DNA of 64,000 nt from the NCBI GenBank assembly GCA_947495125.1, contig CANLXL010000001.1, forward strand, positions 124,001 to 188,000. The letters are read 5' to 3'. The translations under genes were made by a program, and so were the position numbers. Shown here piece after piece: positions 1,702-40,665 of this stretch. Origin of the DNA: an uncultured Flaviramulus sp. (GTDB taxonomy: Bacteria; Bacteroidota; Bacteroidia; Flavobacteriales; Flavobacteriaceae). The notes beneath the pieces were generated by a model. The model saw only the letters and a list, made by a program, of their open reading frames with translations, ran no database searches and was not told the DNA's origin. Numbering within the stretch: position 1 is the stretch's first letter; every line of letters starts with the position of its first letter.

Positions 1702-1837
1702 AATATAATTATCAATTTTCGGGTTTAAAGTACTAAACCACTGGGTTAATATTAATTTTTTTCGCTAAACAACTCATTTTGCTCTCCTTAAGCATACATA
1801 ATCATCATCAACACAAATTAGCTTTTCAATGTAATAC

Positions 1838-3931: not shown

Positions 3932-3951
3932 TTGACTAATCTTTATATCGT

Positions 3952-5751: not shown

Positions 5752-5781
5752 TTCTTTTTAATTAAAACATCTCAATTCCAG

Positions 5782-5789
5782 CAAATGTA
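5782..5789 (-). promoter_or_regulatory. Candidate -7 promoter box (TACATTTG)
   Basis: On the minus strand the sequence reads TACATTTG, matching the Bacteroidota -7 consensus TAnnTTTG. It lies about 31 bases upstream of the fucosidase ATG at 5751, in the 134-base gap that separates the fucosidase pair from the next gene. No well-spaced -33 TTTG box is visible, so this is tentative. Confidence 0.35.
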
Positions 5790-5885
5790 AGATTAAACCA
5801 TACGTATCGCCACTACAAAAAAGACCAACTTTAATATTATTTTTGCCATTACATCCCATAATCTGACACTATAAAGCAAAAATAT

Positions 5886-6725: not shown

Positions 6726-6738
6726 AATCTTAAACGTA

Positions 6739-8949: not shown

Positions 8950-9059
8950 CTCAAAACAATTTAAACTATTAAAAATTAACATGTTATAATGTATGAAATA
9001 TTTTTAAGCTATACCTGCCTAACAAAATAATTCACATATTGATAACAAAATCTGGCATT

Positions 9060-10103: not shown

Positions 10104-10238
10104 TCTAATTTTTTTTACATCATAAATTGAAGCATTAAATTATTAAAATAGAAAATATTTCGACTAATAACCACTCAAAGCAGACAGATACAGTTTGTAT
10201 TTTGAAAGCTAAAAAAGAGGGCCTATTTCTTTGACATT

Positions 10239-12509
10239 CTATTTTAAAATAATTTTTAAGTGTCCTGAATTCACTAAGTCGTCATGAGAAACAAAATAAC
10301 CTTTATGAGGTTTCCCGTTGCGCTGAATCTTGTGGATGTATTTCTTTATTTTTTTGTTATTATCTGAAGCATTAGAACTTATAACCAGTTTATCATTCTG
10401 ATAATATCTCGAATCTAAATGAATCGTTATTTTATCAAAAACCGGGCTTGTAATGGTATAGCTCGGTTCTGCCGGAGAACTGGGATAAATACCCATCATA
10501 CTATAAATTAACCATGCAGACATGGTGCCGGTATCATCATTCCCGGGCAAGCCATCGGGTGTGTTTTTAAAATATTCTTTGATCAATTGCGATACACGGT
10601 CCTGGGTTTTCCATTCATATCCTTTAGCATAATTATATAAAAAGGGATAGTTTATATCCGGCTCGTTAGCCATATCATATTGCCCGGTTTCAAAAACCTT
10701 ATCCAATTGTTTTACGAAATGCTTTTTTCCGCCCATAAGCTTCATAAGCCTTTTTATATCATGAGAAACCATAAATGTGTATTGCCATGAATTGCCTTCA
10801 ATAAACCCAAGGTTTTTCTCAAAATTGGCTCCTTTATTCGGGTTAAACGGTTCGTACCAAGAACCGTCATGATTTTTAGGCCTCAACAAATTAAATGTCG
10901 GATCGAATAAATTCCTATACGAGGTAGATCGTTTTTTAAATAGTTCAAAATCTTCCTCCTTTTTCAATGCTTTTGCCAATTGCGATATCGCAAAATCAGT
11001 GATATTGTATTCCTGAGTCGTCGATACTGACCCGCTCTTTGTTGTGGTCGTGGTTAAATAGCCTTTTTCTATATAATCTTCAATACCGGGACGCAAAGGA
11101 TTATTTTCTATTTGCATCGCACTTTTTCGCATAGCTTCATAGGCTTTTTCGATATCAAAATCTTTAATACCTCTTAAATACGTATCGGTTAATATAATTC
11201 CGGCAGGATCTCCTACCATGGTTGTTGTTTCCGTGGCGTTCAACTCCCATTTGGGTAACCATCCGCTTTCATCATATATATTAAGCATACTTTTGACCAT
11301 ATCGGATTGCTGCTTCGGATAGACTAAGGACATTAAGGCATGTAAATTCCTATAAGTATCCCAAAAAGAGAAGACTGTAAAACGTGTGCCATCGGTCTTT
11401 TTTGTTTCACGCTCTGCCATACTTGGGTATTCCCCATTATAATCATTCAGAGTATTAGGATGAATTAAAGTATGATATAAGGCGGTATAAAAAATGGTTT
11501 TATCATCTTTTGAACCGCCTTCTACTTCAATTTTTGAAAGTAAATTATTCCAGCTATTTGCTGTTTTGCTATAAATATCATTAAATGTTTGTGAGTCGAT
11601 TTCTTTTTCCAAATTTTCTCTGGCATTTTCAATACTTACATAAGAAACACCAATTTTTACTTCGACTGAAGTTGGTTCTTTAAAATGATAAGTAAAATAA
11701 CTGCCTATGCTGTCTCCAATAACTTCCTTTCGATATTGTTTATACAATCTGGTTTTTCCGTTGTATCCCATCCATTGCCCTTCCACACCAGTATTTTTCA
11801 AGGGTGTTTTCCATACACCAAACTCATCAGCGGGCTTACTGAATTTTGCAACAAAATACACAGGATATGATTCTTCAGGTTTATAATAACAAAATGAACC
11901 TACGGTTCTCATGCCTTCAATTTCTGTTGGCGATACGACCTTTACCGTGGCTCCTAACTCGTTGGTTAAACCCAGACCTAAATTTATTAAAATATTAGAT
12001 TGCCCTTTGGGAAAAGAATACCGGCTGACTCCCACTCTGGTTGAGGCGGTCATTTCTGCTTTAACATCGTACTTTTTAAGATTTATACTGTAATATCCTG
12101 CTTTAGAAACCTCATTGGTATATGTGGAGCCATATTTCAAATGATCCGTTTGAAGTTCTCCTGTTGTTGGCATGGTTAGAATAACACCTAGATCCGGGCA
12201 ACCGACACCACTTAAATTAACGTGGCTAAAACCTGTTAAAAAGGTATTCTCATTAACATAAGGATTGGATAACCAGCGACTATCTTTTTCCAAAGGTAAA
12301 TTTTGCGGTCCGGCAACATTAAAGGGAGAAACGCTAACCATGCCTCTGGGAGCGATAGCTCCGGGATTTGTAGCGCCATAATTAGAAGTACCAATAAACG
12401 GGTTTACATAATCTATTGGTTTCTCCTGAGAGAAGCTCATAGAAAATGAACCCAGAGCAATGATTAAACTATACTTTCTTAGAAACCGTAACAACATAAC
12501 ATCAAACAT
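10239..12509 (-). CDS. GH92 exo-alpha-mannosidase, secreted (divergent NDD/ANEP type)
   Basis: Up to 756 residues; the ATG at 12497 (four residues shorter) fits equally well. Signal peptide ends near SMSFSQ. GH92 hallmarks are IDYVNPFIGTSNYG (32-45), FSFWDTYRNLHAL (380-392), IEGNSWQYTF with the presumed acid Glu571, and GNDDTGTMSAW (656-666). GH92 enzymes are calcium-dependent inverting alpha-mannosidases that trim N-glycan mannose. This paralogue differs from the other three: it has ANEPDINYPFLYNY where two others have HGNEPSHH, NDD instead of NED, and TMS instead of QMS. It probably has a different linkage preference. It follows the GH29 gene by 16 bases and ends the GH92-GH123-GH29-GH92 run. 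Confidence 0.9.
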   Translation of the reverse strand: MFDVMLLRFLRKYSLIIALGSFSMSFSQEKPIDYVNPFIGTSNYGATNPGAIAPRGMVSVSPFNVAGPQNLPLEKDSRWLSNPYVNENTFLTGFSHVNLSGVGCPDLGVILTMPTTGELQTDHLKYGSTYTNEVSKAGYYSINLKKYDVKAEMTASTRVGVSRYSFPKGQSNILINLGLGLTNELGATVKVVSPTEIEGMRTVGSFCYYKPEESYPVYFVAKFSKPADEFGVWKTPLKNTGVEGQWMGYNGKTRLYKQYRKEVIGDSIGSYFTYHFKEPTSVEVKIGVSYVSIENARENLEKEIDSQTFNDIYSKTANSWNNLLSKIEVEGGSKDDKTIFYTALYHTLIHPNTLNDYNGEYPSMAERETKKTDGTRFTVFSFWDTYRNLHALMSLVYPKQQSDMVKSMLNIYDESGWLPKWELNATETTTMVGDPAGIILTDTYLRGIKDFDIEKAYEAMRKSAMQIENNPLRPGIEDYIEKGYLTTTTTKSGSVSTTQEYNITDFAISQLAKALKKEEDFELFKKRSTSYRNLFDPTFNLLRPKNHDGSWYEPFNPNKGANFEKNLGFIEGNSWQYTFMVSHDIKRLMKLMGGKKHFVKQLDKVFETGQYDMANEPDINYPFLYNYAKGYEWKTQDRVSQLIKEYFKNTPDGLPGNDDTGTMSAWLIYSMMGIYPSSPAEPSYTITSPVFDKITIHLDSRYYQNDKLVISSNASDNNKKIKKYIHKIQRNGKPHKGYFVSHDDLVNSGHLKIILK

Positions 12510-12525
12510 TAATTCTATTTTTTAA

Positions 12526-14019
12526 TTAGTTTACTCCTGATATTTTAAATACCCATGCATATTTGCTGGAAGGATTATTTTGCAGACTTTCGGGAATTAT
12601 AATTTTGAAGCCCTCTTCTGAAGATTTCCATTTTAAGTTTCTTTTAGATCCCAGCATCTTTATTTTTGCTCCTCTTTTAGGGGTTAACGATTTTATCGTG
12701 ATTTCTGAAGGTATTTTATTTTCACCTTCTTCGGCCAGGTAAGCTAAAAACACGCTGCCTTCCTTGTTTTGAGTCATACAAATATTGTTTTCCTTATAAG
12801 GAGCAATCGGTTTTGTACCATAAATAGCGGAACTGTTAATCTTCATCCAATCGCCATATTCTTCTAATAAATCGTAGGCTCCTTGTTGCCATTCACCTTC
12901 TGGACTTGGTGCTATATTAAGGAGTAAATTTCCACCTTTTGCAACAACATCGATAAGCATATGTACCCCTTGTCTGCCACTCATATACTTAGCATTTGGT
13001 GTATAAGACCATCCCCCACCGGAAATAATACAGGATTCCCATGGGTATGGCAATGTCTTTTCCGGAACTCTGTTTTCCGGTGTTAAATAATTTTGATTTT
13101 TACCATGCACAGCTCTATCTACAACAATTAATCCCGGTTGTTTTTTTCTAGCTTTAACTACCAACTCGTCCATTTTGATATCCTGGCTAATCATCATGTT
13201 TTTAATATAACCTGTCGGGCTCTCTCTTTGCTTGTCTTTATAAAAATGGTCTAACTCTTTTTGCGAGTTTTTAGCAACCCAACCGCCATCAAGCCATAAA
13301 ATGTCAACACTACCGTAATCCGTCATAAGTTCTAAAATCTGATTATGTGTAAAATCGACATACTTTTGCCACTTCTCGGGGTATACAGCAGGATCGTAAT
13401 TCACATTTCGTCCTAAAGGAGGAAAGTAAGGATCCCAGTAGTTTTTATGATTCCAATCGGGTTTAGAGAAATAAGCTCCAATCCACATATCTTCATTTCT
13501 AAAAGCATTAAAAATTTCTTTGGCTATGTTTGCTCTTGGATGACTGCTGAAGGCGCATTCGGAATCGGTAACTTTATAATCGGTGTATTTCGAATCGAAC
13601 ATCGAAAACCCGTCATGATGCTTGGTGGTAAATACCATATATTTCATACCCGCATTTTTTGCAGCTTCCGACCATTTTTCAGGATTAAATTTCACCGGAT
13701 TGAAGGTCTTTTTCAGGCCTTCATATTCTTTTTTATACTCGAAATAGTTTTGTGGGTTTTCTCCCTTTTTTCTTTCACACCAACCGTAATCTTCCGGACA
13801 AAGCGACCAGGATTCTACAATGCCCCATTGACTGTAGGTTCCCCAATGCATTAACAGGCCGAATTTTTTATCTTGCCATTCATCTAATTTTTCAAGTACT
13901 AAAGGGTCAGTTTCCGGAACATAACGTTCATCTTCATATATTGCTTGTGCTAACAAACTGTTTTGAGTTAAAACTAATACAACGATCAGTTTTAAAATTC
14001 TGGTATCAAAATACTTCAT
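12526..14019 (-). CDS. GH29 alpha-L-fucosidase, secreted
   Basis: A 497-residue protein with a signal peptide ending near SLLAQA (residue 26). The GH29 barrel shows KKFGLLMHWGTYSQWG, FTTKHHDGFSMFDSKYT and the nucleophile Asp244 in DILWLDGGW. A short C-terminal beta-sandwich follows from about residue 400. Unlike the other two fucosidases in the window it has no accessory domain. The aspartate context and single-domain plan suggest GH29-A, the broader-specificity group. It lies 12 bases after the GH123-like gene and 16 bases before a GH92 gene, so all are probably one transcript. Three GH29 enzymes with different architectures imply more than one fucose linkage in the substrate. Confidence 0.88.
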   Translation of the reverse strand: MKYFDTRILKLIVVLVLTQNSLLAQAIYEDERYVPETDPLVLEKLDEWQDKKFGLLMHWGTYSQWGIVESWSLCPEDYGWCERKKGENPQNYFEYKKEYEGLKKTFNPVKFNPEKWSEAAKNAGMKYMVFTTKHHDGFSMFDSKYTDYKVTDSECAFSSHPRANIAKEIFNAFRNEDMWIGAYFSKPDWNHKNYWDPYFPPLGRNVNYDPAVYPEKWQKYVDFTHNQILELMTDYGSVDILWLDGGWVAKNSQKELDHFYKDKQRESPTGYIKNMMISQDIKMDELVVKARKKQPGLIVVDRAVHGKNQNYLTPENRVPEKTLPYPWESCIISGGGWSYTPNAKYMSGRQGVHMLIDVVAKGGNLLLNIAPSPEGEWQQGAYDLLEEYGDWMKINSSAIYGTKPIAPYKENNICMTQNKEGSVFLAYLAEEGENKIPSEITIKSLTPKRGAKIKMLGSKRNLKWKSSEEGFKIIIPESLQNNPSSKYAWVFKISGVN

Positions 14020-14031
14020 AATTTGAAATGC

Positions 14032-15681
14032 TTATTTAATGTGGTTTATTAATTTCTTTTTAGTTTTTCTATAATCTTTAATAGATAGATTATAATCGGT
14101 ATAGCTTCTAAATTGGCGATTTATAAGCTTTTCATACTTTTTTGGTTTCTTTTGTTTTAAGATTTGTAGTAAGTCGTAGTCTTCACAACCCACGCGATGA
14201 GCTTCAAAACGAATCGATGACCAGGGTTCTTCTTTTCCCGGATAAATAATGTGAGTATCTCCGGCTGGCAAAAAATTGTTTGGCGCGGCACCCGGAGCAG
14301 GGTGATGTATCACACTTTGAGCGAAGGGATCACCATAGTATTGATTAAGTCCCCAATGCAAATAGCCTCCGGTGTTATAAAAAGCAGCACCCCAGCCAAA
14401 ATAAACCTGACGCAATCGTTCCATATCCAAAGTTCTGTTTAACCATTTACCACCTGGAATAAGGCAGGTATATACCAGTACTTTTTCTCCCAATTTTTCG
14501 CGTTCCCTGAAAAAAGACTCATTATCCTGAAAATCGTTTATTAATGGACACCAAATATCGATAGCCCCGGTCAGACCATCTCTATCATTGGTTGCTTCCA
14601 TAATTTTAACCTCAGGAAATATACGTTTAACTTGTTTCGAGATATCTTTATAGCAAGCCGCATTGACTGCAGTTGGTTCATCTGAAATATGTTGTAGCCA
14701 GCTGTGTTCTAAATCATTGTTCTTTACAAACTCATAGATCAGATGCATGATTGCAGCAATATCCTTTTTTCCATCCTCCTTATAATAACGTCGTTTTGTT
14801 AGAACAACTTTCAATTCCGGATCTCCCCAATCATCATTTTCACCGCGATACATGAGATGAGGCGCTTCAAAATACTTAAAACCCTGATCTCTAAAAACAT
14901 TGATAAAGCGTAGCATTTTTTCACTATCTAACTGAATTTCGCCGTTTTCAAATTTGAAAAGCTCATAAGGTAAGGTAATTGAGTTCTGACGCCCATGCGC
15001 CATGACTTTGGCATATTTCTTTAACATCATAAACCAAGGCTCCGTCCAGCGCTCCAGATCATGATGTTCTTCCATTCTCTTTAAATTGAACCAATTGGTA
15101 TAGAAGAATTGACTCTCTACCAGTTCAGGAAGTTTTACCGGATGAATCTTTATGGTAAAGGTAGCTTCAGCTTTAAACTGCTCTGCCACCACATTGATTT
15201 TTATCTTTTGAACGCCTTGTTCCTGAGTCATTGACGCTGGTATATCCAATCGTAATGCCGTATAGTTTGAAGTACTTTTTAACACGATGTCCTTAATCGG
15301 CTGAACGACTTCAAAGATTCTAAAAGGTGCGCGTCTGATAACGTGGGGGTTGGTCTTTCCTAAATACTGTTCCGTTCGACTATCGATTCCTGTATTCTGC
15401 TCTACCGGGACATCGATAAGTCTACTTAACACAGATTTTGGTAACTCCAAACCATCCTTCGTTACCGATACAGCGTACGTACTTGCTTCAGGCATTCTTA
15501 ATAGCACATGAACACTGGCTATGGCGCCTTGCGGATAGTCAGCCTTCCAATTTTTACCATAGTTTTCAAGGTTATTGACATCAGGATAGATAGGTTCCAA
15601 TGGATCCACAAGCCATATTTGCCCCGAAGTCAAACCGGATATTAACAACAAGAAAGCGGCAAATAAAGATTTTATATCCAT
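14032..15681 (-). CDS. GH123-like (DUF4091) glycoside hydrolase, putative beta-N-acetylgalactosaminidase
   Basis: A 549-residue exported protein (signal peptide MDIKSLFAAFLLLISGLTSG). Residues about 30-180 form an N-terminal beta-sandwich; from about 185 comes the DUF4091/GH123 catalytic domain with FYTNWFNLKRMEEHHD, WLQHISDEPTA, DIWCPLIND and YLHWGLNQYYGDPF. The adjacent Asp334-Glu335 in HISDEP match the Asp-Glu pair of substrate-assisted catalysis in GH123 N-acetylgalactosaminidases. Catalysis on a beta-linked N-acetylhexosaminide is therefore likely. If the substrate is GalNAc, invertebrate LacdiNAc antennae of N-glycans would be a natural target, but that is inference. The gene sits between a GH92 gene (10 bases upstream) and a GH29 gene (12 bases downstream). 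Confidence 0.75.
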   Translation of the reverse strand: MDIKSLFAAFLLLISGLTSGQIWLVDPLEPIYPDVNNLENYGKNWKADYPQGAIASVHVLLRMPEASTYAVSVTKDGLELPKSVLSRLIDVPVEQNTGIDSRTEQYLGKTNPHVIRRAPFRIFEVVQPIKDIVLKSTSNYTALRLDIPASMTQEQGVQKIKINVVAEQFKAEATFTIKIHPVKLPELVESQFFYTNWFNLKRMEEHHDLERWTEPWFMMLKKYAKVMAHGRQNSITLPYELFKFENGEIQLDSEKMLRFINVFRDQGFKYFEAPHLMYRGENDDWGDPELKVVLTKRRYYKEDGKKDIAAIMHLIYEFVKNNDLEHSWLQHISDEPTAVNAACYKDISKQVKRIFPEVKIMEATNDRDGLTGAIDIWCPLINDFQDNESFFREREKLGEKVLVYTCLIPGGKWLNRTLDMERLRQVYFGWGAAFYNTGGYLHWGLNQYYGDPFAQSVIHHPAPGAAPNNFLPAGDTHIIYPGKEEPWSSIRFEAHRVGCEDYDLLQILKQKKPKKYEKLINRQFRSYTDYNLSIKDYRKTKKKLINHIK

Positions 15682-15691
15682 TTAAAACTGG

Positions 15692-18004
15692 CTAGTTATT
15701 ACTTAACGAATAGGGTACATTTTCGGGTTTTGTTCCTCGTTCTTTATTAGGAACATCACTCATTTCAAATTTCAGCTGTCCCCCTTGCTTAATATCTTCA
15801 TAACGAATAAAATTATGATCCCAAGAGTTTCCATTTAGCTTTGCCGATTGAATGAAGTAGTTATCCTTAGTATTGTTTTTGGCAGAAATAACAAAAGTTT
15901 GTCCTCCATCTAAAGTCAGTGTTGCTTTCTTAAACAAAGGGCTTCCAATAACATACTCATCAATACTTGGTGTCACAGGGTAAAACCCTAGTGAACTAAA
16001 CACATACCAGGCGGATGTTTGCCCATTATCCTCATCACCACAATAGCCATCAGGTGCTGATGAATATAATTTTGTTAGTACGTCCCTAACCTTTTCCTGA
16101 GCTTTATAGGGCGCATTGGCATGATTGTATAAATAAATCATATGCTGAATGGGTTGATTACCATGAGCATAGTTACCCATATTAGCGATTTGCATTTCGC
16201 GTATTTCATGAATAGTAAATCCATAGTATGAGGCATCAAAACTTGGTGGCATGGAGAAAACCTCATCCAATTTCGATGTAAATTTTTCTTTACCTCCCAT
16301 TAAATCAATTAAGCCTTGTACATCGTGAAAAACAGACCAGGTATAATGCAAACTATTCCCTTCGGTAAAGGCATCTCCCCATTTTAAAGGGTTAAACGGT
16401 TCTTGAAACGTTCCGTCTTCATTTTTACCTCGCATTAAATTGTTCGTCCGGTCAAACAGTTTTTTATAATTATAAGATTGCTCATAATAGTGTTCTGCTA
16501 ATTCGGACTGTTTCGTTTTTTCAATCATTTTTGCGATGGTAAAATCTGCAAAAGCGTATTCTAAAGTACGCGCTGCATTTTCATGAATCCCAACATCATA
16601 AGGCACATAACCCAGCTCATTATAATAGTCTACACCTGCTCTTCCTACAGAATTCACAGGACGTCCGTCGTTAACCGTCGCATTTTTTAAAACGGCCTCT
16701 ACTAACACATCCACATCTTCGTCTCGCATATTTCCTTTTAAAAACGCATCAGCTATAATGGTTGCAGAATTAGACCCCACCATACAATCTCTATGCCCGG
16801 GGCTCGCCCATTCCGGTAACCAGCCAGACTCCTCGTAGGTATTCGCAAGGCCTTCCATAATATTGGTATTCAGTTCCGGATACATTAAATTGAAGAATGG
16901 AAATACCGCTCTAAAAGTATCCCAAAAGCCATTATCTGTGAACATATAACCCGGTAACACTTGGCCGTTATATGGGCTATAATGCATAATATTACCTTCT
17001 GAATCATATTCATAGAACTTTCTTGGGAACAGCAAAACACGATATAAACAGGAATAAAATGTTTTAATATTATCGATATTATCGTCTTCGATGGCAATGC
17101 GGCTCAATTCTTTCTCCCAGGCCTCCTTAGCCTTGGTTTTAGTTTGCATAAAGGTATCATTACCAATTTCTGTTTTTAAATTTAATGCCGCTTGCTCGGG
17201 GCTAATAAAAGAAGATGCTACTTTGACATGTACTGTTTCTCCTTTTTTCGTTTTAAAACCTATAATGGCACCAACATGCTCACCTTCATTCGTGGTAGAA
17301 TTTTTGACCAAATTCCAACCATCTCCCCAGGTATGATTCATTTCAAAATCTTTATCGAATTCAGCCACAAAATAATTATGAAAATTATCAGGAACCCCAC
17401 CACTATTATTTCTGCAATACCCAATAATTTTACGCTCTTCAGGAATGATTTTAACCATAGAGCCTTTATAAAATGCATCGAGCATGATGTATGATGAATC
17501 GGCTTCCGGAAAGGTAAATTTAAAATGTGCTGCCCGTTCTGTTGGAGAAACTTCAGCGGTAACATCGTAATCGGCCAAATAAACACTATAGTAATTAGGT
17601 TTTACCGTTTCCGCCTTATGAGAAAAGTGCGATACACGTTCTTCCTCTTTATACTTTAAATCACCAGTTACCGCCATTAACGAAAATGCTGCATAGTCAT
17701 TAATCCATGGACTGGGTTGATGTGTCTGTTTAATACCTCTTATGGTTTTATCGTCATACTTATAAGCCCAACCATCTCCCATTTTAGCGGTTTGAGGCGT
17801 CCAGAAGTTCATCGCCCAAGGCGTGGCAATCGCGGGATATGTGTTTCCATTGGACAGACTGAAATCTGAATCGGTTCCCATCAACGGATTCACATAATCT
17901 ACATACGAAACCTCCAATTGCGTAATAGCCGCCTTCTCTTCATTACACGAAAAGCAGCAAACTGCCAATATAATTATTAGACCTCTGTATAGTGTTTTTA
18001 TCAT
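15692..18004 (-). CDS. GH92 alpha-mannosidase lipoprotein (HGNQP/GDED type)
   Basis: A 770-residue lipoprotein (ILAVCCFSC, Cys20). GH92 features: VDYVNPLMGTDSDF (35-48), GFWDTFRAVFPF (359-370), TEGNSLHYTW with the presumed acid Glu548, and GDEDNGQTSAWY (656-667). It belongs to a distinct GH92 branch with NTYPAIATPWAMNFWTPQT near residue 54, longer than the equivalent loop in the other paralogues. Where two others read HGNEPSHH it has HGNQPIQH, so an acidic residue presumed to lie in or near the substrate site is replaced by Gln. This suggests altered specificity, for example on substituted mannose or another linkage. It starts 62 bases after the cytochrome-LRR gene, which may carry it on the same long transcript. 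Confidence 0.9.
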   Translation of the reverse strand: MIKTLYRGLIIILAVCCFSCNEEKAAITQLEVSYVDYVNPLMGTDSDFSLSNGNTYPAIATPWAMNFWTPQTAKMGDGWAYKYDDKTIRGIKQTHQPSPWINDYAAFSLMAVTGDLKYKEEERVSHFSHKAETVKPNYYSVYLADYDVTAEVSPTERAAHFKFTFPEADSSYIMLDAFYKGSMVKIIPEERKIIGYCRNNSGGVPDNFHNYFVAEFDKDFEMNHTWGDGWNLVKNSTTNEGEHVGAIIGFKTKKGETVHVKVASSFISPEQAALNLKTEIGNDTFMQTKTKAKEAWEKELSRIAIEDDNIDNIKTFYSCLYRVLLFPRKFYEYDSEGNIMHYSPYNGQVLPGYMFTDNGFWDTFRAVFPFFNLMYPELNTNIMEGLANTYEESGWLPEWASPGHRDCMVGSNSATIIADAFLKGNMRDEDVDVLVEAVLKNATVNDGRPVNSVGRAGVDYYNELGYVPYDVGIHENAARTLEYAFADFTIAKMIEKTKQSELAEHYYEQSYNYKKLFDRTNNLMRGKNEDGTFQEPFNPLKWGDAFTEGNSLHYTWSVFHDVQGLIDLMGGKEKFTSKLDEVFSMPPSFDASYYGFTIHEIREMQIANMGNYAHGNQPIQHMIYLYNHANAPYKAQEKVRDVLTKLYSSAPDGYCGDEDNGQTSAWYVFSSLGFYPVTPSIDEYVIGSPLFKKATLTLDGGQTFVISAKNNTKDNYFIQSAKLNGNSWDHNFIRYEDIKQGGQLKFEMSDVPNKERGTKPENVPYSLSNN

Positions 18005-18066
18005 GTTTTGTGTATTACTCTATTAAAATTTCTAATTAATCTCGACTAAAAACTAAAGTCTAAGTT

Positions 18067-20181
18067 CTATCTCACCAAAATTTCATCAACAAAAAGCCAG
18101 GAATCGTTGCCTGCTCCCTCATGCCATGACGGAAGTGTTTTGTAGTTTTGAACAACCACCTTTAAAAATTGGGTGTTTGTATCGGGAATATCAATCGTAT
18201 AGGTTTTGATCTCTGATCCATCTCCATACCTTCCTTTTCTGTTAATTTTTAATTCTCCAACTTTCTTAAATCCAGAATTGTTCGTTTTTGAAGCATATAC
18301 AGCCAGTTTTTTAGGATATAAAATCCACTGTGCCACATCCTCCAAACAATTTATAGAAACTTTACTGACTTGTTTTACGGACTCTAAATCTATGGTTGTT
18401 TCGATATCATCACCTAAAAATCCGACCCAGTTCCCATCTCTTAAAAACGTACTACCTTCTATTAAATCGAATAATTTATGAGCTCCGGGGTATTTTTCAT
18501 CGGGCTGTTTCGTAAAATCATATTTTGAAACTTCATGCTTTATCCTAACAAAATCCTTTTCTAATACCGGGCTCGGTAACCATCCTTTTTTATAGCTCCT
18601 GACTTTTAGGGTCACTGCTTTATCTAAAAATATCTTATCGCTATATTTTAAGGACGTTGAATCGGGATCAGTCCCGTCAATCGTATAATAAATATTCGCA
18701 TTTTTAATTTTAGATTTCAAGCCTACAGAAATGGTATCAACAAAAAGGTTTTTATCTGAATCAAAACTTGGCATTTCTAAATGGCTAATCTCAACAAAAT
18801 CATTATCTGCTCCTTTATAAATGGTTGTTCGGTATTTACTTTCAAGCATGGCTAACGATGCATCATCAACCTTTGTTTCCCAAGCATATACTTGCTCAGG
18901 AACCACATGCTCAAAAAAGCTATTTAGTCCTTTATCTGTAATTTCGGTATTATATAAGTTAAGTACTTTTAATGACTTAGATTGTTCAAAATTCTTTAAA
19001 GCCGCATCGGTAATCTTTGTATTGCTAAGTATGAGTTTTTTTAAATTTTTAAATACTTTTAAACCAGAGATCATGTCATCTGAAAGTGCCGTTTTACTTA
19101 AATCTAACTCAACCGTTTGTGTTCTTAACTTCTCAAGTTTTTTTAAGGCTTCTTTAGTGAGTTCCCCTTTAACGAATTTAACCCTCAATTCCGGTTCACC
19201 GGGGACAAGTTTTAATACACTAAACCCAATTTCCTTGGCAGCATTAATATCTTTTAGCGATGCGTGTTTTATTTCTACTTCTTCAAAAACCAGATACTTT
19301 TTAAGTAACTTATTGAGCGTGTCATTTTTAGGAAGATTTACTGTTTTCTCTTTGAAATCAGCATTATTATTGATCCAATATTCTATGAGCCAGATATCAT
19401 CCTTGGTTAACTGAGGTTTACCTTCCGGTGGCATGTGGTTTTCATCCGAGAGTGGTAATAAAAGGCTTTTAAACATGCTACTTTCCATGGCATTCCCTCT
19501 TTCAAGTACGGGTCCATTTTCCCCGCCTTTTAAAATACCATCGGGAGAATTTAAAGATAACTCGCCTTTTCTCTTTGTGGTATTATGACATTGAATACAT
19601 TTGGCATCCAATATTTTAAACACCACGTCTTCATAAATTTTAAGACTATCTATGTGTTCAATGACTTTTGCTTTTTCGGGTGTTTTCGCATAATGGGTTA
19701 GAAAATCGCTTCCATGGGTCAATACACTTCCATAATGCCCTGCGACACTAATGCATACGAGCGTTAATACAAAAAATGGTAAAAATATTTTGTTTATTCT
19801 TTTATCCTCACTTCGGCTGAATAAAAAGAGGCAAGTTATTAAGATTGCGGACGCTATACCTACCCATAAATGTATGTTCAAGGTATTGTCGTCATAACCT
19901 CCTTCGAAAGACAGGAAGTACCCCAGAATACATGCTAAAACGGCAAAGAAAGCTGAAAAAGCAAGTGCGTATTGCACAACCTGTTTCGGATAGTTACGAT
20001 TTAACCGTCCTACAATATCTATGAACAACGTTAAAATGAGCGCACCAATGGGCAAATGCAATATTAAAGGATGGAAACGTCCCAAAAACAAAACTCCTCG
20101 CGAAGCTTCGCTAATACTAAATATAACGATCGCCAGAATAACTAACGATACTATAACATTTTTAGCGTTTAATAATTTCAT
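18067..20181 (-). CDS. Mosaic membrane c-type cytochrome: DUF2231-like + haem + LRR + chitobiase-type Fn3 + discoidin
   Basis: A 704-residue multidomain protein. Residues 9-150 hold about five membrane helices with FHPLILHLPIGALIL, typical of DUF2231. Then a planctomycete-type cytochrome c domain carries one haem-binding CIQCH (195-199) and a possible axial Met in HMPPEGKPQL. Residues about 300-430 are LRRs (LKKLILSNTKITDAALKNF, LKVLNLYNTEITDKGL). These are followed by a chitobiase-type Fn3-like domain (IYYTIDGTDPDSTS) and a discoidin-like domain ending WHEGAGNDSWLFVDEILV. Topology places the haem, LRR and sugar-binding-type domains in the periplasm. It is the last gene of the PSCyt1/DUF1501 cassette, 10 bases after the discoidin lipoprotein. 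It could pass electrons from cassette enzymes to the membrane; no substrate is known. Confidence 0.8.
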   Translation of the reverse strand: MKLLNAKNVIVSLVILAIVIFSISEASRGVLFLGRFHPLILHLPIGALILTLFIDIVGRLNRNYPKQVVQYALAFSAFFAVLACILGYFLSFEGGYDDNTLNIHLWVGIASAILITCLFLFSRSEDKRINKIFLPFFVLTLVCISVAGHYGSVLTHGSDFLTHYAKTPEKAKVIEHIDSLKIYEDVVFKILDAKCIQCHNTTKRKGELSLNSPDGILKGGENGPVLERGNAMESSMFKSLLLPLSDENHMPPEGKPQLTKDDIWLIEYWINNNADFKEKTVNLPKNDTLNKLLKKYLVFEEVEIKHASLKDINAAKEIGFSVLKLVPGEPELRVKFVKGELTKEALKKLEKLRTQTVELDLSKTALSDDMISGLKVFKNLKKLILSNTKITDAALKNFEQSKSLKVLNLYNTEITDKGLNSFFEHVVPEQVYAWETKVDDASLAMLESKYRTTIYKGADNDFVEISHLEMPSFDSDKNLFVDTISVGLKSKIKNANIYYTIDGTDPDSTSLKYSDKIFLDKAVTLKVRSYKKGWLPSPVLEKDFVRIKHEVSKYDFTKQPDEKYPGAHKLFDLIEGSTFLRDGNWVGFLGDDIETTIDLESVKQVSKVSINCLEDVAQWILYPKKLAVYASKTNNSGFKKVGELKINRKGRYGDGSEIKTYTIDIPDTNTQFLKVVVQNYKTLPSWHEGAGNDSWLFVDEILVR

Positions 20182-20191
20182 ATATACGTAT

Positions 20192-20998
20192 TTATTTCAA
20201 TATCCATTCATCCATAAAAAGCCATGCTTTATTTCCTTTGCCTTCATGCCATTCCGGAATTGATTTTATATTATTCACTTCTACTTTAATAGCTTTTACG
20301 TGAGCATCAATATTTATATCTATAGTATTTAATGACGGACCAGACATGCTTTCCAAAGGATTTATCTTCTGTGTTTTACTACTGAAATCGGTACCGTTTC
20401 GAGATATAGAGACTGTGACATCTTCAGGTGGAAAAATCCATGAGCCGGGATCGCTCAAGTATCCGACACTTAATGATTGAACATAGGTTTCTTTTTTAAA
20501 ACGCATAGTTGCACTGGCAATAGTATCGAAACCCAGCCATTGTGGGTCTTTAAAATCTACTATAGCTTTTCGGTTATTATTTAATGTCAAATTTCCAACA
20601 CCTTTGTAAGATTGACTGGCTTGAGAATGCCATACGATCGTATCTATAACCAGTCCTTTTTTATGAAACGCCATTTGAACCACCTCACTGGCTTTCCAAT
20701 CCGGATGAAAGGCTCTGAACTTATATATCCTCGGTTTTGTAACCTTTATAGGCGTCGTATACCTCGAAGATTCTGTTGAAGGAGTTTCTCCATTTGAAGT
20801 ATAGTATATGATTGCCCCTTTGAGTTTCAAATCGGCTGAAAGTGTTGCTCCCGTTATTGAATCAATAAGTTGATTTGTGGCCTCCAATCGCGGTTGTACT
20901 ATCTGAATCTGATCTTGTTGCAAAAACACTTTTTCAGTATCCTCCTTACAATTAAGGCATACCAGCACCAAAACAATCATCATGACATTTAGCCTCAT
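20192..20998 (-). CDS. Lipoprotein with chitobiase-type Fn3-like and discoidin domains
   Basis: Starting at the ATG at 20998 gives MRLNVMMIVLVLVCLNC, a lipoprotein signal; an in-frame start at 21040 would add 14 polar residues. That ATG overlaps the TGA of the upstream NHL gene as ATGA, so the two are translationally coupled. The remaining 250 residues are a chitobiase-type Fn3-like module (AIIYYTSNGETPSTES) followed by an F5/8C-like module ending WHEGKGNKAWLFMDEWIL. There is no catalytic domain. The C-terminal module closely resembles that of the neighbouring cytochrome-LRR protein. It is probably a surface or periplasmic glycan-binding partner of the cassette; the ligand is unknown. Confidence 0.75.
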   Translation of the reverse strand: MRLNVMMIVLVLVCLNCKEDTEKVFLQQDQIQIVQPRLEATNQLIDSITGATLSADLKLKGAIIYYTSNGETPSTESSRYTTPIKVTKPRIYKFRAFHPDWKASEVVQMAFHKKGLVIDTIVWHSQASQSYKGVGNLTLNNNRKAIVDFKDPQWLGFDTIASATMRFKKETYVQSLSVGYLSDPGSWIFPPEDVTVSISRNGTDFSSKTQKINPLESMSGPSLNTIDINIDAHVKAIKVEVNNIKSIPEWHEGKGNKAWLFMDEWILK

Positions 20999-22038
20999 AC
21001 TCTTGTTAATTTTAAAGGATAAGTTTGGCCGGAATTCCATTGTGCCACATAGACACTTTCATCCTCGTCAATACAAACATCATGAGGGTATTGAAAAAGC
21101 CTGATGGTTTGATATAATTCATCCAAATTACTGTTGTTATACATTGGTGCCGTTGCTCCCGGGCAGGAAACCACATTATTATTTTCGTCCATAATCAATA
21201 AAAACCCGGAATCGCTATTTGGTGATTTCCTAGATTTTAATACCGCAAAATAAATGTGATTATTATGAATCACCGGTCTGCAAATTAGGGCTCCGGGGAC
21301 ATCAATAGAAGATAAATATTTGCCATCCAAACTAAAGCGTTTAAGCACATTCATTTCTCGCGCAGAAATTAACAGACAGGGATTGTTTTTATCTCTATTA
21401 TCATAGCAAATACCATGTGCATTTAAAAACTGGTCTTCATTTGTACCTCGTCCTCCAAAAATATTGAGTAACTCCCCTTTATGATTGTAATGGGTAATAT
21501 ATTGATTTCCATAACCATCAGCCACGTAAAAATCACCATTTTCTAAAACGGTGGTTTCCGTTGGTTTAAAAGCGTCTTTGCTTGCATATTTACCTGTTTC
21601 GGAAGGATAATCTACTTCAAAAATTACTTTACCGTCAATAGTTGTTTTTATAATCTGATGTCTTTCGTAATCGCAAATCAATAAAAAATCTTCGCCATTT
21701 TCCTTAACTAAGGTTAAGCCATGTCCTCCGGGAAACTGTGTTCCCCAGGTTTCCAACAACTTTCCTGATTTATCATAAATAATGATATTATTCTTGGTAT
21801 GATTGGTAAGCATTAAGATACGTCCTTTGGAGTCCTGAACCATTTCATGACAATCTTTTACAGGTGTTTTTAAAGGATCTAAATTTCCCCAATTCATGTC
21901 GACCTTATACTTATGGGAGTTGTGCCCAATAATGACATCCTTACTTTTATTGAAAGCAAAAGCATCGCTATACATGGGAGATAGTAAAATTCCCAATGAC
22001 GCACATGACGATTGTTTTAAAAACTTCCTACGACTCAT
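20995..22038 (-). CDS. Tat-exported NHL-repeat beta-propeller protein
   Basis: A 347-residue protein with a twin-arginine signal: MSRRKFLKQSSCASLGILL. Export by Tat suggests folding or cofactor loading before translocation. The body consists of NHL-type blades, for example MVQDSKGRILMLTNHTKN, PGGHGLTLVKENGEDF, LENGDFYVADGYGNQYITHY, DQFLNAHGICYDNRD and YPHDVCIDEDESVYVAQW, so a six-bladed propeller is likely. NHL and peptidylglycine-lyase-like propellers can bind ligands or catalyse reactions with a metal, and His residues at blade starts (GGHG, NAHG, YPHD) recall the metal site of that group. It lies 2 bases after the DUF1501 gene and overlaps the following lipoprotein gene by 4 bases. A role inside the DUF1501/DUF1549 cassette is clear from context, but its reaction is not. 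Confidence 0.78.
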   Translation of the reverse strand: MSRRKFLKQSSCASLGILLSPMYSDAFAFNKSKDVIIGHNSHKYKVDMNWGNLDPLKTPVKDCHEMVQDSKGRILMLTNHTKNNIIIYDKSGKLLETWGTQFPGGHGLTLVKENGEDFLLICDYERHQIIKTTIDGKVIFEVDYPSETGKYASKDAFKPTETTVLENGDFYVADGYGNQYITHYNHKGELLNIFGGRGTNEDQFLNAHGICYDNRDKNNPCLLISAREMNVLKRFSLDGKYLSSIDVPGALICRPVIHNNHIYFAVLKSRKSPNSDSGFLLIMDENNNVVSCPGATAPMYNNSNLDELYQTIRLFQYPHDVCIDEDESVYVAQWNSGQTYPLKLTRV

Positions 22039-22040
22039 AA

Positions 22041-23498
22041 TTACACCAATATATCGTTAACGACATGCCCTGAAACATCGGTTAGCCTAAAGCGTCTACC
22101 TTGATGCTTGTAGGTAAACTTGGTGTGGTCTATGCCCATTTGATGCATTAAAGTAGCTTGTAAATCATGTACATGCATGGGATCTTTAACAATGTTATAT
22201 CCAAAATCGTCAGTCTGTCCGTAAGTGAATCCAGGCTTTACACCACCTCCGGCCATAAACATGGTAAAGCACTTTGGATGATGGTCACGCCCATAAGTCT
22301 TATCGGTCAATACCCCTTGGCTGTAATTTGTTCTTCCGAACTCTCCACCCCAGATTACCAAAGTATCATCCAACAAACCTCTTTGTTTTAAGTCTAAAAT
22401 TAAGGCTGCTGTAGCCTGGTCAATGTCTTTTGCCTGTTTCTCTATTTGATTAGGTAAATCGAAATGCTGATCCCATCCCATATGATACAGTTGAATGAAT
22501 CTTACGTCCTTTTCAGCCAAACGTCTTGCTAGCAAGCAATTTGCAGCATAAGTACCCGGAGTTCTGGAATTTGCGCCATACATTTTAATAATATGTTCGG
22601 GCTCTTCTTCGATATTCATTGTTGTCGGTACCGATGTTTGCATACGGTATGCCATTTCATATTGTGCAATTCTACTATTAATTTCAGGATCACCAAATTC
22701 CTGTTCTTGTTTATGATTTAACTCACTGATGTAATCCAGCATTTTTCGTCTTTCACCACGAGTCATACCTTCCGGATCTTTTAAATATAAAACCGGATCT
22801 TTACCGGATCTAAACTGAACACCTTGGTGCAAAGAGCTTAAAAATCCATTCCCCCATAAACGCGAATATAGCGGTTGAGAAAACGGTCGTCCCGTTCCTC
22901 TGGACAGTAACACGGTAAATGAAGGTAGGTTCTCATTAAGACTTCCCAAACCATAACTCATCCATGACCCAATACTTGGCCTGCCTGTTTGTTGCGATCC
23001 TGTTTGAAAAAAAGTAATTGCAGGGTCATGATTAATCGCCTCGGTGTGCATGGATTTTATAAAGCACAACTCATCAACTATTTTTGCTGTATATGGCATT
23101 AATTCACTTACCCAGGCACGCGATTCGCCATACTGTTTAAACTTAAAATTACCACCCACTAAAGGAAAACGGTCCTGACCGGATGTCATACCGGTTAAAC
23201 GCTGTCCGTTTCTTACGGAATCCGGGAGATCCTGACCTCTCATTTTATTAAGCAGTGGTTTATAATCGAAAAGGTCTAATTGTGAAGGGCCTCCACTTTG
23301 AAACAGATAGATAACACGCTTCGCTTTGGGAGCGAAGTGCGGTAAATTTAACCCGATAGCATCCAGTTGTTCCTTTCCCGACATATTAGAAAAAGGGTCT
23401 AGTAAGGACGCCGCGGCGAGTCCTCCAACACCTAATCCTAATTTCTTTAAAAAATGTCTTCTATTATTATTGATAAAATGTTTGCTTAGTTCTTCCAT
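22041..23498 (-). CDS. Tat-exported DUF1501 protein (alkaline-phosphatase/sulfatase-like fold)
   Basis: A 485-residue protein with a Tat signal, NNRRHFLKKLGLGVGG, followed by AAASLL. The rest is a DUF1501 domain: VIYLFQSGGPSQLDLFDYKP (63-82), MHTEAINHDPAITFFQTG, RFIQLYHMGWDQHFDLP, VIWGGEFGRT and GRDHHPKCFTMFMAGGG. DUF1501 belongs to the alkaline phosphatase/sulfatase-like superfamily, and the conserved Asp/His residues (WDQH, EFGR, GRDHH) look like a metal site. The family has no settled activity that I know of. It almost always accompanies a DUF1549/DUF1553 protein in Planctomycetes, Verrucomicrobia and some Bacteroidota, as it does here (4 bases after that gene). The start is supported by the Tat motif position. 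Confidence 0.85.
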   Translation of the reverse strand: MEELSKHFINNNRRHFLKKLGLGVGGLAAASLLDPFSNMSGKEQLDAIGLNLPHFAPKAKRVIYLFQSGGPSQLDLFDYKPLLNKMRGQDLPDSVRNGQRLTGMTSGQDRFPLVGGNFKFKQYGESRAWVSELMPYTAKIVDELCFIKSMHTEAINHDPAITFFQTGSQQTGRPSIGSWMSYGLGSLNENLPSFTVLLSRGTGRPFSQPLYSRLWGNGFLSSLHQGVQFRSGKDPVLYLKDPEGMTRGERRKMLDYISELNHKQEQEFGDPEINSRIAQYEMAYRMQTSVPTTMNIEEEPEHIIKMYGANSRTPGTYAANCLLARRLAEKDVRFIQLYHMGWDQHFDLPNQIEKQAKDIDQATAALILDLKQRGLLDDTLVIWGGEFGRTNYSQGVLTDKTYGRDHHPKCFTMFMAGGGVKPGFTYGQTDDFGYNIVKDPMHVHDLQATLMHQMGIDHTKFTYKHQGRRFRLTDVSGHVVNDILV

Positions 23499-23502
23499 GA
23501 TC

Positions 23503-25887
23503 TTATCCTTTAACTATGGCTTCGTCAAGATTAAATATTAAACTCGTTAAAATGGTGAATGCATAGGTGTCCTTATCGGAAGTGACCATGATGTCATCAC
23601 CCTCTTTTTCATCAGATTTTGGTATTGCTTTTGCAACTTCAAAATCTTGCTTTGAAGATTCCAAATAGTCTAACAATCTGTTAGTTTCATCTTCATTAGG
23701 GTCGCGGGAGGTTATTTTTTTAAAAATGCTTTTTACTCTGTCGGTGTCATTCATCGCTTGATCGCTCAACACATTCTCGGCTAAATACTTGGAAGCCTCT
23801 AAAAGTTGTGGATCGTTAAGCATCACCAGGGCCTGCAAAGGTGTACTTGTTTTTTGACGTTTAACGGAACAAAGATCTCTTGTTGCTGCGTCAAAAGTTA
23901 TCATAGATGGCGGTGGTACGGTACGCTTCCAGAACGTATATAAACTTCGCCTGTATTTACTTTCTCCGGTATCCATGATATATTTTGTAAGACCTTGCCC
24001 TGATGTTGTTTCTGCCCATAATCCTTCCGGTTGATAGGGTTTAACACTAGGCCCACCTATTTTATCTACCAATAGCCCACTTACTGCCAACGCATTATCT
24101 CTGATCATTTCGGCAGTTAACTTATTTCTCGAGCTACGCGCCAATAATAAATTATCGGGATCCATTTCCAATAATTTTGAAGACACTTTTGCGGTTTGCT
24201 GATAGGTACTGGACATAACCATCATTTTTATCATGGCCTTTGTATCCCAGTTTTTCTCTCTAAAGGTCACAGCCAACCAATCCAACAACTCCGGATGTGA
24301 AGGTAAAGCGCCTTGATTCCCAAAGTCATCAACGGTAGACACAATACCGGTACCATATATTTGTTGCCAAATTCTGTTAATCGCCACTCTGGCCGTTAAT
24401 GCGTTATTCTCATCAAATAACCAATTCACCAATCCGAGCCTGTTTTTTTCAAAGTTATCTCCGAATGCTAAAACAGCATCCGGCGTACCCAAATCAACCT
24501 CATCGGTCGGTGCATCATAAACACCTCTGTTCAAAATGAAAGTCTTCCGCTCGGGAGCATCATCTTTCATCACCATAAGGTTCACTTCTTTAATAGAATC
24601 GGGCATATTAATAAATGCCAAACTCTCTTCGATCTCTTTGGGTGTAATTTTTATATTGGGTTGTGGAATTTCATCGTATCCAATTTGTCCCTTTTCTTTT
24701 ACCTTGTTGAAAAAGCTATAAAAGCTATAAAATTCATGCTGTGAAATGGGATCATATTTATGGTCATGGCATCGTGCACACTCCATAGTCAACCCCAATA
24801 ATGCCGTGGCCGTAGTATTGGTACGATCCATAACATATTCCACGCGGTATTCTTCATCAATCACGCCACCTTCCTGGGTGATTTTATGGTTTCTGTTAAA
24901 TCCTGTCGCCACTATTTGTTCCAAGGTTGGCTCCGGGAGAAGGTCTCCTGCCAGTTGCCATTTTATAAATTCATCATAGGGTAAATTCTTATTATATGCA
25001 TTTATAACCCAATCGCGCCAAGGCCACATGACACGTTCCAAATCATCCTGGTAACCATGGGTATCGGCATAACGTGCAACATCTAGCCAATCTGAAGCCA
25101 TACGTTCACCATAGGCTTTGGAGGCTAGCAGGTTGTCAACCACATTTTCAAACGCATTTTCACCGGTATCCAATAAAAACGCATCAATCTGTTCTGCAGT
25201 AGGAGGTAAACCTGTGATATCAAAAGCAACACGTCGTATTAACTTTTCCTTCGTGGCTTTTGGAGATGGTTTTAATCCTTTGTCTTCTAAACGCTTTAAA
25301 ATAAAATAATCAATCCCATTCGCTGCCCAATCGGAATCTGCAACCTTAGGTATTTCAGGTTTTACCGGAGGGATAAAGGCCCAATGATCTTTCCATACGG
25401 CACCTTGTTCTATCCATTTTTCGAGTACCTTTTTCTCATAATCCGACAAGGTCAGGTTTGAAGCGATCGGAGGCATCACTTTTTCAGGGTCAGGATTATT
25501 AATTTTAGATATTAACGCACTGGATTCCACATCACCAGGAACTATAGCATAGCGATCCAAATGCTCTCCAATGGCAGCATAAGCACCTTCTTTAGTATCT
25601 AATCTTAAACCGCCTTCACGCGTTCCTTCGTCCGGACCATGACACAAATAACAACGGTCTGATAAGATCGGCTTGACATGAAAAATGTAGTCTATAGTTT
25701 CGGGAACTTTGACATCCGACTTTCCTGAACTTGAACTATGCCCAACATTAGATGACGTGTCATTTAAAGACAAATAGTCATCACTGCTTTTACTTAATTT
25801 ATGCTTAATTAGTAATACTAAAACAAAAGGTACTACAAAGTATAATATTAAGGTATAAGCCTTTTTATTTCGTTTTGGTTTATTCAT
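23503..25887 (-). CDS. PSD1-type protein: planctomycete cytochrome c + DUF1549 + DUF1553
   Basis: A 794-residue protein with one N-terminal membrane anchor (about residues 11-28) and the rest periplasmic. It has a planctomycete-type cytochrome c domain with CYLCHGPDEGTREGG, where the haem motif is CYLCH at 79-83, and VMPPIASNLTL as possible axial-ligand region. Then follow DUF1549 (about 185-400, with ADTHGYQDD, EGGVIDEEYR and CARCHDHKYDPIS) and DUF1553 (about 500-760, with RVAINRIWQQIYG, KLTAEMIRDNAL, RRSLYTFWKR and PLQALVMLNDPQ). DUF1549 contains a second CxxCH (CARCHD), so a second haem is possible. This architecture is known as PSD1; its reaction is not established. It heads the five-gene cassette, after a 130-base gap from the GH20 gene. 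Confidence 0.87.
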   Translation of the reverse strand: MNKPKRNKKAYTLILYFVVPFVLVLLIKHKLSKSSDDYLSLNDTSSNVGHSSSSGKSDVKVPETIDYIFHVKPILSDRCYLCHGPDEGTREGGLRLDTKEGAYAAIGEHLDRYAIVPGDVESSALISKINNPDPEKVMPPIASNLTLSDYEKKVLEKWIEQGAVWKDHWAFIPPVKPEIPKVADSDWAANGIDYFILKRLEDKGLKPSPKATKEKLIRRVAFDITGLPPTAEQIDAFLLDTGENAFENVVDNLLASKAYGERMASDWLDVARYADTHGYQDDLERVMWPWRDWVINAYNKNLPYDEFIKWQLAGDLLPEPTLEQIVATGFNRNHKITQEGGVIDEEYRVEYVMDRTNTTATALLGLTMECARCHDHKYDPISQHEFYSFYSFFNKVKEKGQIGYDEIPQPNIKITPKEIEESLAFINMPDSIKEVNLMVMKDDAPERKTFILNRGVYDAPTDEVDLGTPDAVLAFGDNFEKNRLGLVNWLFDENNALTARVAINRIWQQIYGTGIVSTVDDFGNQGALPSHPELLDWLAVTFREKNWDTKAMIKMMVMSSTYQQTAKVSSKLLEMDPDNLLLARSSRNKLTAEMIRDNALAVSGLLVDKIGGPSVKPYQPEGLWAETTSGQGLTKYIMDTGESKYRRSLYTFWKRTVPPPSMITFDAATRDLCSVKRQKTSTPLQALVMLNDPQLLEASKYLAENVLSDQAMNDTDRVKSIFKKITSRDPNEDETNRLLDYLESSKQDFEVAKAIPKSDEKEGDDIMVTSDKDTYAFTILTSLIFNLDEAIVKG

Positions 25888-26017
25888 CCATTTTATAATT
25901 AATATTATTTTCTAAAATTAAAGATTTTTTATCACAAAATAGTTTAAATTATTTCAGTGAAAAATAACACACGAACACCTCAAGACAAGAACCTTACCAC
26001 GAAAAAAAATGCATTAT

Positions 26018-28342: not shown

Positions 28343-28344
28343 AA

Positions 28345-30585: not shown

Positions 30586-30630
30586 AATTATTTGCCTTAT
30601 TTATTTTTTATGCTTCGGTATAATACATTT

Positions 30631-31791: not shown

Positions 31792-31833
31792 ACTTATTTA
31801 TTTAAGTTATTACCCGATGTAAACTTCATTCAT

Positions 31834-32907: not shown

Positions 32908-32908
32908 A

Positions 32909-33874: not shown

Positions 33875-33882
33875 TTATTTTA

Positions 33883-40664: not shown

Positions 40665-40665
40665 A

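Follow-up and report, generated by a model that had tools for sequence, protein, structure and literature searches.

A DUF2231–haem c protein encoded with PSD1 and DUF1501 in a flavobacterial glycan locus

The protein and its locus

The window (the whole stretch of 64,000 nucleotides that we analysed, from an uncultured Flaviramulus sp.) encodes a protein, here termed P0001, that consists of five parts: a DUF2231 membrane domain, a PSCyt1 haem c domain, leucine-rich repeats (LRRs), an Fn3_assoc module, and a discoidin-like end (Table 1). The reading frame is unbroken, and the plus-strand frame of the same stretch has many stops. Four Pfam models match above their cut-offs: DUF2231 (E = 6e-9; 36.5 versus 26.4 bits), PSCyt1 (PF07635; E = 1.7e-10; 41.8 versus 22 bits), CHB_HEX_C_1 (aa 482-539, E = 7e-12), and Fn3_assoc (aa 487-543, E = 8.8e-13). 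The LRR models fall below the Pfam cut-offs (E = 3.6e-5 for LRR_4, 1.7e-4 for LRR_8, and 0.0022 for LRR_6), with a best score of 24.3 bits where 27 are needed (LRR_4), and the discoidin model PF00754 has no match in P0001 up to E = 1.

We assigned the LRRs and the discoidin-like end from their predicted folds, and the latter also from its similarity to BT0459, a GH20 enzyme of solved structure (6q63). The predicted model of aa 313-463 matches LRR proteins (VIA-align, Z up to 14.1), and aa 577-704 match the C-terminus of BT0459 (Z = 15.3, rmsd 2.1, 125 residues aligned). The sequence of aa 485-703 also matches the C-terminus of BT0459 (E = 1.1e-20), and CBM32 chains are among the Foldseek matches listed for this end. 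(The full-length AlphaFold2 model was built from 13 sequences and has a pLDDT of 64.1. It is serviceable for the transmembrane helices, the LRRs, and the discoidin-like end but poor at PSCyt1, with blocks of about 37-63, and at aa 458-587, which are below 50. The VIA-align rows listed cover mainly aa 306-461, plus the top match at the C-terminus, and hardly reach DUF2231 and PSCyt1; that they contain no haem-b bundle is uninformative.) A signature, WHxGAGxxSWLFVDE, lies close to the C-terminal end. Pfam finds no GH20 catalytic domain in P0001.

A sequence-only reading of this DNA had described a membrane part, a haem c motif, LRRs, and Fn3-like and discoidin-like modules within one protein. 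The uninterrupted 704-residue frame, the Pfam matches, and the two folds that structure prediction recovered all bear this out. It had also stated that the last two modules are those of the GH20 enzymes, and P0001 is indeed 27% identical to the GH20 enzyme at 26018-28342 over aa 476-703. A second GH20 enzyme (58610-60949) has an Fn3_assoc module and no PF00754 match, and its C-terminal part is 29% identical to aa 482-703 of P0001. Also, a DUF4838 protein (6739-8982) has the C-terminal signature WHHGAGLPSWIFADE, which is near-identical in P0001 and in the 282-residue protein described below.

P0001 is the last of five genes on the same strand, in the order PSD1 protein, DUF1501, NHL, 282-residue Fn3-discoidin protein, P0001. 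Successive genes are separated by 4 bp and 2 bp, then overlap by 46 bp (NHL and the 282-residue protein), and are again separated by 10 bp. The PSD1 protein has a hydrophobic N-terminus, which we read as a membrane anchor, and the N-terminus of the 282-residue protein looks, by eye, like that of a lipoprotein. We read the surrounding locus as one for degrading N-glycans, sugar chains of the animal type, because of the established activities of the families that it encodes: GH92, GH20, GH18, GH123, GH130, PNGase F-like, and fucosidase-like. In a divergent operon (39762-41745), NTP_transferase and APH-type kinase genes adjoin, as they do in N-acetylhexosamine kinase pathways. Another protein (43623-45551) combines glucosamine-6-phosphate isomerase and PIG-L deacetylase domains.

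Table 1. Features of P0001 and of its locus, in window coordinates
Feature	Coordinates	Strand	Evidence
P0001, 704 aa, DUF2231-PSCyt1-LRR-Fn3_assoc-discoidin	18067..20181	minus	ORF and Pfam; whole architecture in 20 other loci
DUF2231 membrane domain, aa 36-154, four TM helices	19720..20076	minus	Pfam, AlphaFold2 model, alignment
PSCyt1 haem c domain, aa 195-254, CIQCH at 195-199, putative distal Met250	19420..19599	minus	Pfam, alignment
Leucine-rich repeats, aa 313-459	18805..19245	minus	Pfam matches below cut-off, predicted fold
Fn3_assoc / CHB_HEX_C, aa 482-543	18553..18738	minus	Pfam
Discoidin/CBM32-like end, aa 577-704, nearest solved relative BT0459 C-terminus	18070..18453	minus	Sequence, fold
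282-aa partner, CHB_HEX_C and discoidin-like module as in P0001	20192..21040	minus	Pfam, sequence comparison
NHL beta-propeller, twin-arginine-like start RRKFLK	20995..22038	minus	Pfam, motif
DUF1501 protein, twin-arginine signal	22041..23498	minus	Pfam, motif
PSCyt1-PSCyt2-PSD1 protein, CXXCH at aa 79 and 370	23503..25887	minus	Pfam, motif
Glycan locus around P0001: GH92 (four), GH20, GH18, GH123, GH130, PNGase F-like, fucosidase-like (three), DUF4838, SSF and MFS transporters	370..38054	minus	Pfam

Relatives and their gene surroundings

Of 14 related loci found in a genome scan, five have the whole architecture (67, 51, 50, 50, and 48% identity to P0001), seven have the DUF2231-PSCyt1-LRR core alone or shortened, and two have the C-terminal module only. 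In the source genome itself, the core stands alone four times and is part of a larger fusion twice. Across the family, the core was matched (E ≤ 1e-30) in 34 of 149 genomes, at 83 or more places (here and in the phylum search below, places per genome are lower bounds). We read the DNA around 76 places outside the source genome, together with the loci from the genome scan and the source genome. The 92 DUF2231 proteins comprise 56 that are core-only, 20 with the core and the Fn3/discoidin half, 10 fusions to PSCyt2-PSD1, 5 other long proteins (of which L029 was domain-checked by Pfam), and 1 partial sequence; these tallies omit L025 and L026, which have the C-terminal module only, and L024 and L130, which are without the DUF2231 part.

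The domain order had been called an unusual mosaic, and one alternative is that two genes were joined during assembly. The two halves are found apart as well, as the 56 core-only proteins and as separate small Fn3-discoidin proteins, but the joined architecture is conserved in 20 other loci (in Aestuariivivens, two Aureibaculum, Lacinutrix, Aquimarina, and 15 further loci), which rules out an artefact. Nor is the mosaic a one-off, since DUF2231-PSCyt1-LRR is the core of a conserved PSD1-DUF1501 cluster.

Specifically, 73 of 76 core loci have a same-strand DUF1501 gene no more than 2.5 kb upstream, and 72 of 76 have a PSD1 gene (PSCyt1-PSCyt2-DUF1553) no more than 5.5 kb upstream. The exceptions are L069 and L087, which have neither gene upstream (L087 has 9.2 kb of upstream sequence, with no DUF1501 in it), L079, which has no PSD1, and L023, which begins at a contig end. 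In ten natural fusions, the order is DUF2231-PSCyt1-PSCyt2-PSD1, and DUF1501 is the next gene in all ten. Unfused PSD1 proteins contain two CXXCH motifs each (75 of 76), and the fusions contain two in total: the first falls in the PSCyt1 region, the second further on, where the sequence matches the PSD1 profile. From these sequences, a single PSCyt1 seems to serve DUF2231 as well as PSD1. Because this one PSCyt1 sits between DUF2231 and PSCyt2-PSD1, the fusions suggest an order of electron carriers.

The core and DUF1501 also occur in the same genomes. (We counted close DUF1501 proteins and left the distant ones out.) In the family sample of 149 genomes, 34 have the core, 30 have a close DUF1501 (E ≤ 1e-40), and 30 have both; the four genomes with only the core have the 945-residue fused type (three) or a 1,328-residue type (one). 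In the phylum sample (296 genomes, E ≤ 1e-30), 37 have the core, 38 have a close DUF1501, and 37 have both, so that none has the core alone, and the exception with DUF1501 but no core (G420) is a weak partial match. This phylum overlap comes from two tables that share the same genome draw as far as listed, and three genomes (G000, G001, and G032) are common to the two samples.

The converse association is looser. The core lies within 3.5 kb at 65 of the close DUF1501 places listed (at least 83) and is missing at 18, so the membrane partner is dispensable beside some PSD1-DUF1501 pairs. We read 16 of these 18 places and found no DUF2231 gene near them; PSD1 was present in 15 of the 16. The remaining two are tandem pairs next to the fused form (L127 and L128). 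At L127:9182-17757, two PSD1-DUF1501 pairs stand in tandem, the first with a fused membrane part.

Between DUF1501 and the core, 23 of 76 loci have an NHL gene and 12 of 76 have a small Fn3-discoidin gene, and 16 further intervening genes include 11 xylose-isomerase-like TIM barrels and 4 Mala_s_1-like genes. A twin-arginine-like motif is present in the first 45 residues of 83 of 86 DUF1501 proteins and 30 of 33 NHL proteins. We considered the NHL protein as a lactonase and rejected this, as nothing speaks for it but a weak match to SGL (E = 0.063). The genes downstream of the core vary, and the flanking genes do not fix a single reaction. Seven loci have a 476-residue gene downstream of the core (L091, L094, L098, L099, L100, L104, and L123), and these are probably the 7 of 46 downstream genes scanned that match the sodium:sulfate symporter family. 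In six of these seven loci, the core is preceded by an uncharacterised gene, in most cases for a TIM barrel. Judging from these genes, an acidic product is perhaps taken up at the symporter loci.

In the source genome, DUF2231-PSCyt1 is also fused to PSD3/PSD5/PSD4/PSCyt3/PSD2 (L029:8762-12754), and DUF1552 adjoins at 12757-14106. At this locus, the second planctomycete-type system thus shares the membrane part of the first.

Turning to the C-terminal half, 20 loci have the core with Fn3/discoidin and 56 have the core only (the window copy is outside the 20). When these labels are placed on a tree of the 76 cores (made by a quick method, with L023 left out), four changes are needed, at least three of them forced by well-supported branches, so gain or loss of the half has happened repeatedly. 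For example, L018 (Snuella) is without it and yet is nested in the main long-form clade. L097, L103, L110, and L116, which make up one of three groups of the long form, lack the WHxGAG-type end, and L069, L077, and L084 deviate from it. When 43 modules are placed on a tree, the small Fn3-discoidin neighbours fall into a single group (97) and the P0001-type modules split over two groups, so the sharing of modules within the locus looks old and not like a recent copy.

Glycan genes of the types in the window occur within about 9-10 kb of 10 of the 20 long-form loci (9 if we exclude L074, which has a DUF4838 gene alone) versus 1 of 56 core-only loci, and the small Fn3-discoidin neighbour is found at 12 of 20 versus 0 of 56; as the loci are related, Fisher tests on these counts overstate independence and their p-values are indicative only. 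L018, which lies inside the long-form clade, is the only core-only locus where a glycosidase was counted. The glycan genes occur in two of the three long-form groups, and a fused-form locus (L133) carries two GH92 genes. The other half of the long-form loci have no window-type glycan gene nearby (about 9-10 kb), where the count covers genes similar to the glycosidases of the window or to its PNGase, DUF4838, and Exo_endo_phos genes and misses other families. Indeed, among 56 neighbours (230-900 aa) from the ten long-form loci without window-type genes, there are four sulfatases and one GH1.

Haem, histidines, and topology

The CXXCH motif and Met250 are invariant in 77 of 77 sequences. Class I-type cytochromes c are marked by CXXCH with a distal methionine, so Met250 is inferred from the alignment to be the distal haem ligand. 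Covalent attachment of haem to P0001, which the sequence-only reading had proposed, is well supported by these residues as a prediction. The source genome has two Cytochrom_C_asm genes, for haem c assembly.

The membrane domain has five histidines (His37, 42, 104, 149, and 156) at the periplasmic ends of its helices, with His156 just past the Pfam match. In the DUF2231 proteins that are linked to CXXCH, His37 and His42 are conserved in 91 of 91 and the other three in 92 of 92. DUF2231 (PF09990) proteins without CXXCH share the four-helix domain and the first three histidines (His37 in 26 of 26, His42 in 25, and His104 in 23; 26 usable sequences from 29 loci). In contrast to P0001, which also has a fused haem c domain, they mostly lack His149 (6 of 26) and His156 (2 of 26), so we view the haem-linked branch as having two extra histidines. 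The natural reading of these sequences is that the histidine cluster would hold haem b or a metal.

If so, P0001 would act in the manner of haem b membrane anchors such as cytochrome b561 and CtaA. The likeness would be one of role; as to homology, hhalign gives a suggestive but weak link of DUF2231 to cytochrome b561 or CtaA (P = 0.011 or 0.0032, probability 3.7 or 10.0%), where three controls gave P = 0.063, 0.077, and 0.76. Pfam matches to cytochrome b561 (7 of 41 DUF2231 members, best E = 3.2e-4) and to CtaA (5 of 41, best 0.0029) were dropped as evidence because unrelated membrane families score alike (for example, AA_permease_2 at 8.6e-5). Searches of PDB sequences with the profiles of DUF2231, PSD1, and DUF1501 returned nothing beyond cytochrome fragments and apparent chance matches.

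The loops TM1/2 and TM3/4 average 3.2 K+R versus 0.7-0.8 D+E, while the loop TM2/3 averages 0.6 versus 2.5 and the segment after TM4 averages 2.8 versus 4.6 (means of 92 sequences). By the positive-inside rule, loops TM1/2 and TM3/4 are therefore predicted to be cytoplasmic, and the five histidines and every soluble domain are predicted to be at or beyond the periplasmic face of the inner membrane. This bears on the earlier suggestion that P0001 connects substrate recognition with electron transfer. The connection is plausible and fits the context of the locus, but a ligand at the cell surface is unlikely because the haem, LRR, Fn3, and discoidin parts are all predicted to be periplasmic on the inner membrane. 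The end of P0001 shares the discoidin-like fold of the C-terminal region of BT0459 and of CBM32; unlike them, it comes without a catalytic domain, is predicted to be periplasmic, and is joined to a haem membrane protein. Binding of glycans by the Fn3/discoidin half is suggested only by this resemblance.

A proposed role for P0001

We propose, with a probability of about 0.6, that P0001 is an inner-membrane, periplasm-facing subunit for electron transfer and docking in a PSD1-DUF1501 redox module. Its role as an electron carrier is suggested by CXXCH with the distal methionine and by the PSD1 fusions. Electrons would pass between the haem(s) of PSD1, the haem of PSCyt1, and the histidine cluster of DUF2231 (with haem b or a metal), and between this cluster and the quinone pool or respiratory chain. 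The direction would most likely be outward from the oxidation of a periplasmic glycan-derived substrate. The LRRs may hold partner proteins, and the Fn3/discoidin half, which occurs mainly in glycan loci, may hold glycan products or sister proteins with the same module. The enzyme of the module is most likely PSD1, given its two CXXCH motifs and long invariant blocks. No solved structure of a relative reveals the reaction of any partner, so the evidence for a redox role of PSD1 is its pair of CXXCH motifs; the predicted structure of PSD1 (pLDDT 49.6) was left out of the fold comparison.

The same architecture would also suit electrons that move the other way, from the quinol pool via DUF2231 and PSCyt1 to PSD1, which would then attack glycans as a haem enzyme of the peroxidase or oxygenase kind. 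Matches to the CCP_MauG di-haem peroxidase family in 4 of 46 genes directly downstream of the core are consistent with this, as is the available text of He et al. (PMC5615132), in which epilimnion (surface-layer) genomes are richer in these cytochrome genes, a trend tied to oxygen. However, nothing we found assigns an oxygen or peroxide site, and respiratory oxidation fits an oxic distribution equally, so we consider the opposite direction unlikely, if worth keeping in mind. Five invariant histidines clustered at the periplasmic membrane face, with the LRRs as a possible docking surface, might instead belong to a factor that assembles PSD1 or DUF1501 or delivers haem, copper, or another metal to them, and that carries no electrons. 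The invariant CXXCH and methionine and the in-line place of PSCyt1 in the fusions favour electron transfer, and such a factor seems to us quite improbable. Finally, binding-type modules and a haem within a single membrane protein could make a glycan or redox sensor that regulates the locus. But the predicted cytoplasmic loops are all short, there is no Pfam signalling domain, and the constant partners are PSD1 and DUF1501, so it would be surprising if P0001 were a sensor.

Beyond the role of P0001 as an electron-transfer and docking subunit, we can offer a broader idea, which is speculative and, on balance, doubtful. The PSD1-DUF1501-DUF2231/PSCyt1 set might oxidise glycans directly and form a class of periplasmic respiratory enzymes, wired to the membrane, that has gone unrecognised. 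In that case, the DUF2231 linked to PSCyt1 would be a membrane cytochrome or metal protein of a new kind, with a cofactor, through which sugar oxidation is coupled to the quinone pool; the discoidin form would be tuned to N-glycan loci.

These genes resemble the PSCyt/PSD proteins of He et al. (2017, PMC5615132), which combine PSCyt and PSD domains and have two constant neighbour families of unknown function. Those are from Verrucomicrobia, whereas ours are from Bacteroidota. Here, the neighbours are DUF1501 with the PSCyt2 type and, at one locus, DUF1552 with the PSCyt3 type, and we infer from the available text of that paper that these are the same two families. Like P0001, the proteins of He et al. 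have fused carbohydrate-binding modules, from which the available text suggests a carbohydrate role for PSCyt genes; this agrees with the glycan locus here. DUF2231, a membrane partner, and LRRs, which are part of the P0001 system, are unmentioned in that available text. In the portions available of other papers, PSD1 and PSCyt2 domains occur 41 times each in Rhodopirellula baltica (an expression study, PMC2754498), DUF1501 is only an amplicon match in a Planctomycetes screen (PMC4982196), and DUF2231 is mentioned (PMC12828279). In the literature searched, which covers neither most subscription journals nor preprints, we found no DUF2231 membrane partner of PSD1-DUF1501. The domain families themselves were already known.

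In the available text, He et al. (PMC5615132) write that no function is known for such conserved architectures and gene arrangements. PSD/PSCyt proteins are numerous, and the study of P0001 adds a near-constant membrane partner to them. Together with the order of carriers suggested by the fusions and the definable substrate class of the locus (N-glycans, judging by its glycosidase families), this partner makes the question of their function testable in a culturable flavobacterium.
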